This document shows positions 36,952-41,050 of a stretch of 64,000 nt of DNA, piece by piece. The notes beneath the pieces are model-generated. The model made no database searches. It was given only the letters and a program-made list of their open reading frames with translations, and had not been told where the DNA came from. This DNA is from Thermoplasmata archaeon. Lineage in GTDB: Archaea > Thermoplasmatota > Thermoplasmata > Lutacidiplasmatales > UBA184. The stretch's first letter is position 1; each line of letters begins with the position of its first letter. The stretch covers positions 67,350-131,349 of the forward strand of contig JAKIVX010000001.1 in NCBI GenBank assembly GCA_022750335.1. The letters are read 5' to 3'. A program made the position numbers and the translations under genes.

Positions 36952-37200
36952 CAGCCAGCCTTATCCGGCGGCAGATGCGCGCGGGTATAGGCCCCATGAA
37001 ACCCTTGGTGATCGCCAATTATTCGTCGTGACCAAAGATCAGAAACGGCCGACCTGTCCTCAGACTTCGAGAGCAGGGGTCTGAACCGGAGTGGGCACCG
37101 GGTGCGTTCCTCTAGGACAGGGTCGTATGCGACCTGCTGGGGGGGGTGGCGAATGCGCGATCCCTTAGCCGTGTCGGCGCCATTGCCCCCATCCAAACTG

Positions 37201-37208
37201 TTTACTAT
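37201..37208 (+). promoter_or_regulatory. TATA-like box of the G1-peptidase-like gene
   Basis: TTTACTAT lies 20-27 bases before the ATG at 37228. It supports that start, which also gives a clean signal peptide. Confidence 0.5.
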
Positions 37209-37227
37209 CCCATCGCCATGCGAGGAC

Positions 37228-37983
37228 ATGCGCACCCTGGCCCTCGGAGGTCTGGTCGCCATGTTGGTCCTAGTGGCGACGTTCCTCGCTCCGGCCGTGG
37301 CAGCCGCTCCCACGGCGGTTGCGGCCGGTCATGGACCGCTGGGCTCTCCGACCCAAGCTCCCACCACGGTCTGGGCCGGCTACGTGGCCCTCGGATCCGC
37401 CGGCTCGGTGACGAAAGTGTCCGGAACTTGGACCCAACCTGCGGTGACCTGCGGTTCGGCCACACGGTATGCACTCTTCTTCGTCGGAGTTGACGGTACT
37501 TCCTTATCGGACATTGAGGATATTGGTACGGCGGCTCAGTGCTCCGGCGGAACTGCCTCGTACCTGGCCGAATGGCAATTTACCTACGCCGGCGGGCCGA
37601 TCTCTTCGATCACGATCCACCCGGGCGACACAATCTCGGCCTCCATCGTCTACTCATCGGGCAATTTCACGATCAAGCTCACCGACGGTAGCCACACTTT
37701 CTCGAAGAAGGTTTACCAACCAGGGGACGCCCGCGATTCCGCAGAATGCATCGTCGCGCGACCCACCACCATTTCCGGCGCGCTGCATCTCGCAAATTTT
37801 GGCACGGTGACGTTTTCCTCCTGCAAGGCAACCATCAGTGCCGTCTCGGGCGGCATCGGATCGTTTGCGAGCGTCTTCGAACTAACGATGACTCAAACGA
37901 CCTCTACCAAGCCACTCGCCGTCCCGTCCGCGCTTCAGACGGGGAAGAAGGGCTTCTCCGTGGCGTGGAAGAGGGCGAACTGA
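37228..37983 (+). CDS. Secreted G1-family (eqolisin, glutamic) peptidase-like protein
   Basis: The 251-residue product starts with a signal peptide (MRTLALGGLVAMLVLVATFL, then APAVAAA). The mature part follows eqolisins: WAGYVALGSAGSVTKVSGTW, FVGVDG, YLAEWQFTYAGG, ITIHPGDTISASIVY and a late DSAECIVARP with the conserved Glu. Family catalysis uses a Gln and a Glu. By my alignment the Gln (in the family's IxQxG region) is replaced: this protein reads DIEDIGT there. It may be inactive or use a different pair. Starts upstream at 37102 are rejected because the TATA box and signal peptide fit 37228. Confidence 0.75.
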   Translation: MRTLALGGLVAMLVLVATFLAPAVAAAPTAVAAGHGPLGSPTQAPTTVWAGYVALGSAGSVTKVSGTWTQPAVTCGSATRYALFFVGVDGTSLSDIEDIGTAAQCSGGTASYLAEWQFTYAGGPISSITIHPGDTISASIVYSSGNFTIKLTDGSHTFSKKVYQPGDARDSAECIVARPTTISGALHLANFGTVTFSSCKATISAVSGGIGSFASVFELTMTQTTSTKPLAVPSALQTGKKGFSVAWKRAN

Positions 37984-38507
37984 GTCGGGCCGCCTTCAGC
38001 GCTCCGACCCGCAAGACCCGAATGATCGTTCCCCTTTTGGCGAGCGCGGTCCGGTTTGGTCAAAGTCGACCCCCGTCCTCTGGTCTTTCCGACTGGCCCT
38101 CCTTTGGTAGACAGAGGAAAACGATCCGCGGTTTTTGGTGCGTTTGGTGCCGGCCTCCCTTTGCCCACACGTCCTTACTTCCTCTCTTCTGACGCCAAAG
38201 GACGAAGCAGTCCCTACGACCAACCCTACCGTGAGTGCAGCAGAGCGATCCGTCGTACAAGAGGGGTCGGATATTGTCTCAATTCCCGACCTGTCCTCGA
38301 TGCGCACACCAGCCCCTCGCGGCCGATCGGGCGCCTTCCCGAGAGAGTTTTAGGTCTGCCGCTCGAAAGATCGCACGAAGGGAGGGGTCGGTGGTCGGCG
38401 GCGCTGCCCCTACGGTTTAACAAACGGGGGGCATAGTGTCTCCAAACCGGCGAGTTGTAAGGTGGCGGTGCGCTGCTCGGGGAGGGGTTCGCGCGGTACC
38501 GCACCAA
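37984..38507. other. Gene-free stretch between the peptidase-like gene and arsR
   Basis: About 520 bases with no supportable gene on either strand; the small frames here share no protein-like pattern. The base composition is more T-rich than neighbouring DNA around 38060-38200. It contains one hairpin-repeat half unit at 38407-38450. Confidence 0.55.
38407..38450. repeat. Hairpin intergenic repeat, copy C
   Basis: CCCCTACGGTTTAAC followed by AAACGGGGGGCATAGTG and TCTCCAAAC. Read on the minus strand it gives GGTTTGGAGACAC, ATGCCCCC and GTTTGTTAAAC, almost identical in order to the left arm of copy D. Confidence 0.65.
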
Positions 38508-38543
38508 ACATATCGTGTACTTTATATAAATCAATAGATATGT
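38508..38543 (+). promoter_or_regulatory. arsR promoter with flanking inverted repeat
   Basis: The TATA box TTTATATAAA (38521-38530) lies 21-30 bases before the ATG at 38551. It is enclosed by ACATATC (38508-38514) and GATATGT (38537-38543), an inverted repeat well placed as an operator for the ArsR protein encoded just downstream. Confidence 0.6.
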
Positions 38544-38550
38544 CAATTCC

Positions 38551-38904
38551 ATGTCGAATCTCTCCGAAGCCTTCGAGGTCCTCGCGGATCCGACACGACT
38601 TAGGATCGTCGAGGAGCTGCGTGGGGGTGAGAGATCCGTGGGATCAATCGTCTCCACACTGGGAGTTTGCCAGCCGGGGGTCTCTCGGCACCTGCGCATC
38701 CTGCACCAAGCCGGATTTGTCCAGTCCCACCCCGACGGCCAGCGGCGCCTCTACTCGCTCCAGCGGAAGCCGTTCCGCGCCCTCGACGCGTGGATCCACG
38801 ACTATCGGGATCTGGTCGAGGCCCGACTCGACCGGCTCGGTCAATTGGTCGGGGAAACCGGCCCTTCTTACCGCCCCGCAACGAAGAATCCGCGGAGGGA
38901 ATGA
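38551..38904 (+). CDS. ArsR-family winged-helix regulator
   Basis: The 117-residue protein has the full ArsR pattern: AFEVLADPTRLRIVEELRGG, VGSIVSTLGVCQPGVSRHLR, ILHQAGFVQSHPDGQRRLYS. The single Cys in the recognition region is not the CxC metal site of ArsR/SmtB, so the signal is probably not arsenite. ArsR genes beside SRPBCC (AHSA1) genes are a known pairing, found two genes downstream here. Its stop overlaps the next ATG (ATGA). Confidence 0.9.
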   Translation: MSNLSEAFEVLADPTRLRIVEELRGGERSVGSIVSTLGVCQPGVSRHLRILHQAGFVQSHPDGQRRLYSLQRKPFRALDAWIHDYRDLVEARLDRLGQLVGETGPSYRPATKNPRRE

Positions 38905-39881
38905 ACTTGGAAATTTCCGTGCGCGAAGCAGAAACCCGTGACGGGCCGACCGCTTTCTCAATTCGCCGGGACCTCGAGTCCCAGGCAACCCATGTGTTCT
39001 ATGTGCCACCGGTCCCTCCCACGAAGCTGCAACGCGACGCGGCCCGCAACATCGTGACCAAGTACCTCCAGGTACGGGCCGGAGAGAACGCGATCATCGA
39101 ATCGTGGAACCACACAATGCCGATGGCCACGGCGATGGTCGATGAGGTCCGCCGCGTGGGCGGCCATGCCGTTCTCATCCATGAGAACGAGGATGCGTGG
39201 TGGCGCGCGATTGACCGAAAGCAGAGCCGGCTCCTCGGCCAGTCGAGCGGCCCGGAATGGGCCGCGTTGAAAGCCGCGGATGTGTACGTGAACTTCTGGG
39301 GTCCGGGCGACACCGACCGGATCGAGAAACTGTCCGAGAAGACGTTCGACGAAGCGCTCGCCTGGAACTCGCCCTGGTACGAGGTGGCCCGGAAGGCGAA
39401 TCTTCGCGGGGGCCGGATGACGGCCGCATTCGTCACGGAGGGTCGGGCCAGGAAGTGGGGCCTCGACCGCGGGCAGTGGGAGGAGAACGTCTGGCGGGCC
39501 TGTCTGATCAGCCCGGACGAACTGGCCAGGACCGCGGCTCGGCTGGCGAAAGTACTCTCCCGGGGGAGGAAGGTACGGATCACCCACTCCAACGGAACCG
39601 ACCTGGAAGTCGCTCTAGCGGGGGTCGCACCGCTGCCGTACGACGGGAGACCCCACCCCAGGGACAAGAAATATGGCCAGTTTGGTATGCTGACCCAAAT
39701 CCCCGGCGGAAACCTCGACGTGGCCCTCGATTCGAAGACCGCGGAGGGGACCTTCCACGCGAACCGCCGGACCAATATCTGGTGGACCGTGCACTCGGGG
39801 GGCAAGCTCGAATTAACGGACGGCAAGCTTTCGTCGTACTCATTCGAACATGGAGGGGAGGAGTTTGCCCGTCAGTACTAG
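38901..39881 (+). CDS. M29-aminopeptidase-like protein, ending at an in-frame TAG
   Basis: The frame from the ATG at 38901 (overlapping arsR) resembles AmpS/M29 leucyl aminopeptidases: KYLQVRAGENAIIESWNHTM, a helical middle, RKVRITHSNGTDLEVALAG, IPGGNLDVALDSKTAEGTF and LTDGKLSSYSFEHGGEE. In active enzymes the IPxGE motif provides a metal ligand; here it reads IPGGN. Translation meets TAG at 39879-39881, 326 codons in, while the family pattern continues in the same frame for 77 codons (next entry). Confidence 0.75.
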   Translation: MNLEISVREAETRDGPTAFSIRRDLESQATHVFYVPPVPPTKLQRDAARNIVTKYLQVRAGENAIIESWNHTMPMATAMVDEVRRVGGHAVLIHENEDAWWRAIDRKQSRLLGQSSGPEWAALKAADVYVNFWGPGDTDRIEKLSEKTFDEALAWNSPWYEVARKANLRGGRMTAAFVTEGRARKWGLDRGQWEENVWRACLISPDELARTAARLAKVLSRGRKVRITHSNGTDLEVALAGVAPLPYDGRPHPRDKKYGQFGMLTQIPGGNLDVALDSKTAEGTFHANRRTNIWWTVHSGGKLELTDGKLSSYSFEHGGEEFARQY

Positions 39882-40115
39882 CACGGCACGGCAGGCAAGG
39901 ACCGTACAAGCGTTCTCAAGCTCGGGCTGAACCCGGCCGTCAAGGACGTCCCCAACCTGGAGACGGTCGAAGGCGGATCCGTTTCCTTGCAGCTCGGGGG
40001 AAACCGGTATCTTGGGGGCACCAACGGATCGAATTTCTTTACCTGGTTCTCGCTGGCCGGCTCCGAGATCGCGATCGACGGGGTTCCCGTTATCCGCGCC
40101 GGGAAAGTCCTCTAG
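39882..40115 (+). pseudogene. In-frame continuation of the M29-like gene after TAG
   Basis: After TAG the frame reads HGTAGKDRTSVLKLGLNPAV, then VEGGSVSLQLGGNRYLGGTN and a final EIAIDGVPVIRAGKVL, matching the C-terminal domain of M29 proteins (G-x-N, GGTN, DG-x-x-I-x-x-G) up to TAG at 40113-40115. The next gene starts only 5 bases later, so the operon spacing also fits the longer product. It is either a nonsense mutation, a readthrough product, or a sequence error. The HxD metal site of the family is also missing here (FFTWFS). Confidence 0.65.
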
Positions 40116-40120
40116 CATCC

Positions 40121-40609
40121 GTGAGCGAACGAACCGCGTCTCCGGAGCTGACCGCCTTCTCTCGCCCTAGCGACCTCGAGAACCAGGTGAGCCGACTCTT
40201 CCACGTGCCGCCGGAGCGGCTCTTCCATTTCTGGACCGACCCGAGCACGTTCGCGTTGACGTACACCACCGACCCGACTCGGGCCACGGTCGAAACGTAT
40301 GAATTCCGCCAGGGGGGAAAATACTCCATAGTGACCCGCGGAGGGGACGGGGGCGTGTACCGCTTCCAGGGGGAGTATCTAGAGATCGTCCCGCCGCGGC
40401 GAATCGTCAACACGTGGGAAGTGAGCATGTGGCCCGGCGTCCGGGCGGTCGAGACTGACGAGTTCGAGCGCGTAGGAGAGTCCACGCGGCTCACCATTCG
40501 ATGGAAGTACCCGTCCCGCGAGGACCGGGACCGGATGAAGGGAGTCGGAGGGAAGGGCGGGATCTCCGAACAGTGGGACTTCATCGCCGACCTGCTCGCC
40601 CGGACATAG
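40121..40609 (+). CDS. SRPBCC/AHSA1-domain protein
   Basis: The 162-residue product has the START-like hydrophobic-pocket fold: VSRLFHVPPERLFHFWTDPS, FRQGGKYSIVTRGGDGGVYR, FQGEYLEIVPPRRIVNTWEV and a C-terminal helix ISEQWDFIADLL. Such proteins bind small lipophilic ligands and are often encoded with ArsR regulators, as here. The start is a GTG at 40121. Confidence 0.85.
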   Translation: MSERTASPELTAFSRPSDLENQVSRLFHVPPERLFHFWTDPSTFALTYTTDPTRATVETYEFRQGGKYSIVTRGGDGGVYRFQGEYLEIVPPRRIVNTWEVSMWPGVRAVETDEFERVGESTRLTIRWKYPSREDRDRMKGVGGKGGISEQWDFIADLLART

Positions 40610-41050
40610 ACCCATCTGCCAAAACCAGGGCGGGGTCCTACAGCCGTCGGCCGCGCGGCTCCGCACTACATTCTTGGCGCGAGCCCGTTCCGAACGATTG
40701 GAGACCTCGGCAGATCGCGCATCACCAGGAGACGCCCGAGCGCACCAAGGTCCTCGCCCCCTCCCGCCGGTTTCGCATTGCAGGGTTTGGAGACACCATG
40801 CCCCCATTTGTAAAACATCGGGGGCGGGGATACCCCCATTTGTAAAACATCGGGGAGAATAGTGTCTGAAAGCCCAGAGGGTTTTCCCCGAAAGTCGATG
40901 GGACTCCGGATTGGATGCACCTGGTGCCGAACGTGGCCACGCCCGCGAGCCCTCGTCGCTCTGCTGGGGTCTCTGTTCCTGGGCGGGTAGGAGACCAGCG
41001 GATCTTCCCCCTGGGAGGGAACTCGAAGTTCGTCCTGGGCCCCCAGTCAA
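40610..41050. other. Gene-free stretch with hairpin repeat
   Basis: No supportable gene in about 440 bases. Short frames on the minus strand (40666-40940) only arise from the tandem repeat inside copy D. Apart from that element nothing stands out. Confidence 0.55.
40783..40875. repeat. Hairpin intergenic repeat, copy D, with internal tandem repeat
   Basis: Two perfect 23-base copies (40801-40823 and 40833-40855), each CCCCC-ATTTGTAAAACAT-CGGGG, are enclosed by arms GGGTTTGGAGACACC (40783-40797) and AGTGTCTGAAAGCCC (40861-40875), which are near-complements. Each 23-base unit can itself form a small hairpin. Confidence 0.75.

Follow-up and report, generated by a model that had tools for sequence, protein, structure and literature searches.

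Organization of the Locus

The window, that is, the whole stretch of 64,000 nucleotides that was analyzed, is located on contig 22 of a 1.6-Mb assembly that comprises 37 contigs and is 72.5% complete. Within it, a frame at 38901–40115 that resembles peptidases of family M29 runs for 326 codons up to a TAG at 39879–39881 and then for another 77 codons up to a second TAG at 40113–40115. The frame and its neighbors are composed of the following features:

38551–38904, + strand: ArsR-family regulator (HTH_5, 54.7 bits), the TGA of which overlaps the ATG at 38901 (ATGA)
38901–39011, + strand: AHSA1-like N-terminal stub of 37 codons, in frame and 5′ of the M29-like part
38901–39878, + strand: M29-like frame 5′ of the internal stop, 326 codons, conserved part from ~39018
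39879–39881, + strand: private in-frame TAG, a sense codon in 29 of 29 orthologs
39882–40115, + strand: 77 homologous codons 3′ of the stop, and the second TAG
40121–40609, + strand: AHSA1 gene with a GTG start (PF08327, 80 bits)

An earlier note, made from the letters of this DNA alone, had claimed that the frame continues with family character for 77 codons past the internal TAG and that the next gene begins five bases past the second stop. Both claims hold: The GTG of the AHSA1 gene at 40121 is found at exactly this distance, and the 77 residues are identical at 69 positions to those of the nearest ortholog, L005, and at 68 positions to those of L006. It is the identity to L005, and not the open frame alone, that marks the stretch past the TAG as homologous coding sequence; the window is G+C-rich and contains 247 open reading frames (ORFs) of at least 100 amino acids, so that an open frame of 77 codons on its own is little proof. 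The sole in-frame ATG, GTG, or TTG past the TAG that is a candidate for re-initiation is a TTG at 39987, for which no clear ribosome-binding site was visible by eye. At the other end of the gene, translation may begin further 3′ than at 38901, as most orthologs are homologous only from residue ~35–40 onward; a GTG at 39003 provides an alternative start. Further upstream, at 37102–37983, the window contains a Peptidase A4 gene (80 bits); a passage of a study on the Lutacidiplasmatales (PMC9287336) names Peptidase A4 as one of the extracellular peptidase families with the highest prevalence in this lineage.

Conservation of the TAG Site among Orthologs

For the comparison of the TAG site we used 29 orthologs from other genomes (L005–L033; 64–80% identity) and set aside L003 and L004 from the window's own genome as well as L034–L039, which also carry sense codons and at least two of which repeat sequences of the G-numbered genomes. 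The 29 orthologs encode lysine (15), arginine (10), glutamine (2), alanine (1), or histidine (1) at this position, and the commonest codon among them, present in 14 of the 29, is a single base away from TAG. The internal TAG is thus private to the window's genome. This comparison, which had been proposed in the earlier note, also yielded no relative among the 29 that likewise ends at the TAG site without the 77 codons. Among the matches listed, three were flagged for a stop and considered as parallels, and all were rejected: In G020 (TAG) and G087 (TAA) the stop precedes the conserved part and falls into DNA that is not conserved, and in the more distant G035 (TAA) the conserved part is free of stops.

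Some match to the M29-like gene is present in 101 of the 103 genomes of the family, and orthologs of at least 61% identity occur in at least 42 of the 103, the window's own genome included, as counted from the listed rows. Because of this distribution of orthologs and because two additional M29-like copies reside in the window's own genome, the gene is to be regarded as accessory and dispensable. Among named genomes, the closest relatives of the M29-like protein come from the Thermoplasmata metagenome-assembled genomes (MAGs) AcS1-45 and SubAcS15-67 (6 loci found). The AcS1-45 locus contains the M29-like segment of L006 (genome G057, same genus as the window's genome) without a letter changed, and the SubAcS15-67 locus does so for the segment of L009 (genome G015, same family). 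Both MAGs are listed in a table of genomes in a paper on the Lutacidiplasmatales (PMC9287336), to which the window's genome therefore probably belongs as well. A DNA search for collinear relatives returned gene-sized matches only, among the matches listed.

TAG as a Stop Codon in the Lineage

The locus has in common with pyrrolysine-encoding archaeal genes that its frame contains a TAG and continues with homologous sequence beyond it, and pyrrolysine is known in the Thermoplasmata-related Methanomassiliicoccales (PMC3941956, PMC4153887). That UAG encodes pyrrolysine, or has otherwise been reassigned, in the window's lineage is nevertheless extremely improbable. TAG is a major true stop codon: It terminates 25 of the 29 orthologs (TGA and TAA two each) and 18 of 39 non-overlapping coding-like ORFs of the window, the M29-like one included (TGA 16, TAA 5), where the census of 39 results from a filter by codon-position G+C and length and not from gene calls. 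Moreover, profile searches for the N-terminal domain of PylS gave matches in 0 of 103 family genomes. Its C-terminal domain produced weak matches in 90 of the 103 genomes and in 13 of 14 controls, which exceeded the cut-off in none of the former and in one of the latter; for PylD, weak and short matches in 18 of the 103 genomes all remained below the cut-off, while 10 of the 14 controls matched, one of them above it. The positive control Methanosarcina acetivorans was over the cut-off in each Pyl search. Additionally, none of the 31 tRNA matches (RF00005) in the window's own genome, which is 72.5% complete, has a CUA anticodon. The tRNA-Pyl is an atypical tRNA. Because the genome is incomplete, the missing CUA tRNA carries less weight than the family-wide absence of PylS.

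TAG is consequently not reassigned but an ordinary, major stop codon here. The earlier note had pointed to TAG as a common stop in the window and had judged genome-wide recoding to pyrrolysine unlikely, and these results bear it out in both respects; of the search for pylS, pylBCD, and a CUA tRNA that it had suggested, PylS, PylD, and the tRNA were covered here. The difference from pyrrolysine-encoding genes lies in a stop that is not conserved, in Pyl machinery that was not found in these searches, and in the lysine or arginine that 25 of 29 relatives carry in its place.

The anticodons of the 31 tRNAs were assigned by several means: ARAGORN named 21, where its call at L075 is the neighboring gene that was counted as L060, and the remaining ten were obtained by intron-aware ARAGORN, from covariance alignments, or from the sequence by eye. 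One tRNA, L066, was read as CAU by eye, while intron-aware ARAGORN printed other anticodons and cmscan listed no match there. This gene (1501–1603 on contig 25 of the window's own genome) appears to encode an initiator-like tRNA-Met with an apparent intron in the D-loop region.

Family Assignment and Putative Metal Ligands

The label of an M29-aminopeptidase-like gene, which the earlier note had applied, stands insofar as the match to PF02073 (M29) is consistent, but the match is weak: It scores 25.2 bits up to the TAG and 24.5 bits over the whole frame, at a cut-off of 27 that two paralogs from the same genome exceed. The clade likewise matches the solved M29 structures of PepS and AmpS weakly (4icq, E 0.0023; 1zjc, E 0.004). 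The metal ligands of AmpS/PepS, which we take to be Glu, Glu, His, His, and Asp at positions 253, 319, 348, 381, and 383, may provide a further point of difference from the family. In a weak alignment, the second glutamate of the PTEEV motif of PepS, corresponding to Glu253, faces non-acidic residues. The C-terminal motif N-x-S-x-x-H-x-D of PepS, which contains positions 381 and 383, corresponds by eye to N-G-S-N-F-F-T-W in the window, so that Phe and Trp replace His and Asp. The tryptophan at the position of Asp383 is invariant in 20 aligned sequences, including the two paralogs. This apparent lack of metal ligands suggests that the M29-like clade may not be a metallopeptidase, a question that has no bearing on the stop. 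Structure predictions for seven sequences had a mean pLDDT of 40, and no conclusion was drawn from them.

Selection Downstream of the Stop

Past the TAG, the window protein shares 90% of its residues with L005 and 88% with L006, compared to 78% and 76% before it. The median pN/pS of the window against the 29 orthologs is 0.346 before and 0.355 after the TAG, whereas pairs among the other 29 have medians of 0.378 before and 0.426 after the site. Measured against these ortholog pairs, the codons past the TAG thus exhibit no relaxed selection of the kind that characterizes a broken gene. Columns that are invariant in the 29 orthologs lead to the same picture in the later part, as the window violates 0 of 15 past the TAG; before the TAG it violates 4 of 81, while each relative violates 0–2. 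The latter could be a weak hint of older relaxation, although it is small and unshared by the later part. In the protein tree, the terminal branch of the window (0.146) is within the range of the others (0.056–0.264). Without relaxed selection past the TAG, the stop would have to be of recent date, stem from an error of the assembly, or be bypassed; a nonsense pseudogene whose stop had arisen only very recently would be expected to show this pattern.

The similarity along 39018–40112 is uneven: L005 and L006 are the nearest relatives past the TAG, while L007 is equally near before it (79% vs 78% and 76%), and in its middle part the window protein has diverged further from each of the six relatives in the comparison. 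A mosaic origin of the M29-like gene is possible, judging from the alignments.

Possible Rearrangement and Decay in the ArsR/AHSA1/M29 Gene Set

Residues 1–37 of the frame are similar to the N-terminal part of the AHSA1 protein that is encoded downstream in the window (57% over 21 residues, E 1e-4) and to that of an AHSA1 protein of a relative, L136 (34% over 35 residues, E 0.005). With residues 1–26 and E values up to 1e-3, only the window's own genome was matched among the ortholog loci compared. The gene order is ArsR–AHSA1–M29 in L031 and L032, and in L010 the M29-like gene is divergent from ArsR–AHSA1. The best-supported reading of these sequences is that a rearrangement would have left the 5′ end of an AHSA1 gene in front of the M29-like gene and in frame with it. 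A second AHSA1 copy in the same genome (contig 34, 4398–4736; L001 3021–3356) is situated near an M29-like copy, carries an in-frame TGA, and is truncated, as it is matched over residues 38–153 of 162. If both stops are real, decay in the ArsR/AHSA1/M29 set is seen twice in one genome, and the M29-like locus looks unstable.

We additionally scanned for broken genes in 14 stretches of the window (12.5 kb) that have a homolog in 800 kb of two relatives; in this small sample, the M29-like stretch alone has a stop inside the gene. The stretch 1–861 (− strand) was rejected as a second broken gene: There the stop falls right where the match begins, ahead of the conserved part, and a Pfam search on both strands of it gave no match. 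Antisense and off-frame rows with stops were recognized by eye as shadows of real genes and discarded as well.

Origin of the Internal TAG

Of the options that the earlier note had left standing, namely mutation, readthrough, and error, the private nature of the stop favors either a nonsense substitution of recent date or an error in the consensus, while readthrough is favored by the intact frame alone. We consider it probable that the TAG arose recently through a nonsense substitution confined to this uncultivated member of the Thermoplasmata, in an M29-like gene that is accessory and present in several copies. This is supported by the site itself, at which all 29 orthologs have a sense codon and the commonest codon is one base from TAG, and by the genome, which holds a broken AHSA1 copy as well as an AHSA1-like stub fused to the M29-like frame. 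We infer that the organism does carry the substitution and that the gene product is inactive: Translation would be expected to end at the internal TAG, and the resulting protein, short of its last 77 residues, would probably be non-functional. There would have been too little time for further decay, in the form of either a frameshift or relaxed selection past the stop. With its single private stop, intact remainder, uninterrupted orthologs, and paralogs in the same genome, the locus resembles a recent nonsense pseudogene in a multi-copy accessory family; it differs in that no further decay has occurred yet, and from the assembly alone it is indistinguishable from an assembly error. What speaks against the nonsense allele is that the codons past the TAG look fully constrained, which only a stop of very recent origin, a stop that is not real, or a stop that is read through would explain.

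The second of these options would place the fault in the MAG, as a wrong consensus base, an assembly error, or a base from a minority strain, with the gene of the organism uninterrupted; it is less likely than the nonsense substitution. The fragmented state of the assembly (37 contigs, 72.5% complete), the one base that separates the TAG from the commonest codon of the relatives, and the unrelaxed selection past it are all in line with an error, as is the fact that none of the other 13 of the 14 stretches is interrupted by a stop within the gene, a second stretch having its stop in the leader just ahead of the conserved part. The independent rearrangement at the locus and the other broken copy in the genome, however, make real decay plausible. 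Tolerated or programmed readthrough of the lone UAG by a near-cognate tRNA, by which some full-length protein would be kept, is improbable. It would account for the intact frame and the selection past the TAG and for the position of the second stop five bases from the next gene. Moreover, a survey of prokaryotes describes in-frame stops with low dN/dS as widespread, for bacteria in particular, and suggests frequent readthrough, while many such events are held to be short-lived in the same passages (PMC7918605); as the TAG fits this description, low-level readthrough is possible. On the other hand, TAG occurs in 0 of 29 relatives, the stop hence being unconserved, and no RNA structure is apparent past it: The 100 bases that follow fold no better than shuffled sequences (z 0.54; the folding of 139 out of 200 shuffles was as good or better), and an Rfam search of 38500–40700 with E values up to 1 gave no match. 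A review of archaeal recoding, in the passages that deal with readthrough, names only selenocysteine and pyrrolysine as demonstrated events (PMC8211752). Still less probable is an efficient near-cognate readthrough of the lone UAG that would yield a 326-residue and a full-length M29-like protein from one gene.

In a member of the Thermoplasmata, a TAG past which the frame continues perfectly could suggest pyrrolysine, a suggestion that the 29 orthologs and 103 genomes remove. Of modest use to annotators may be the M29-like clade itself, which is apparently without metal ligands and tied to ArsR and AHSA1 in varying order.
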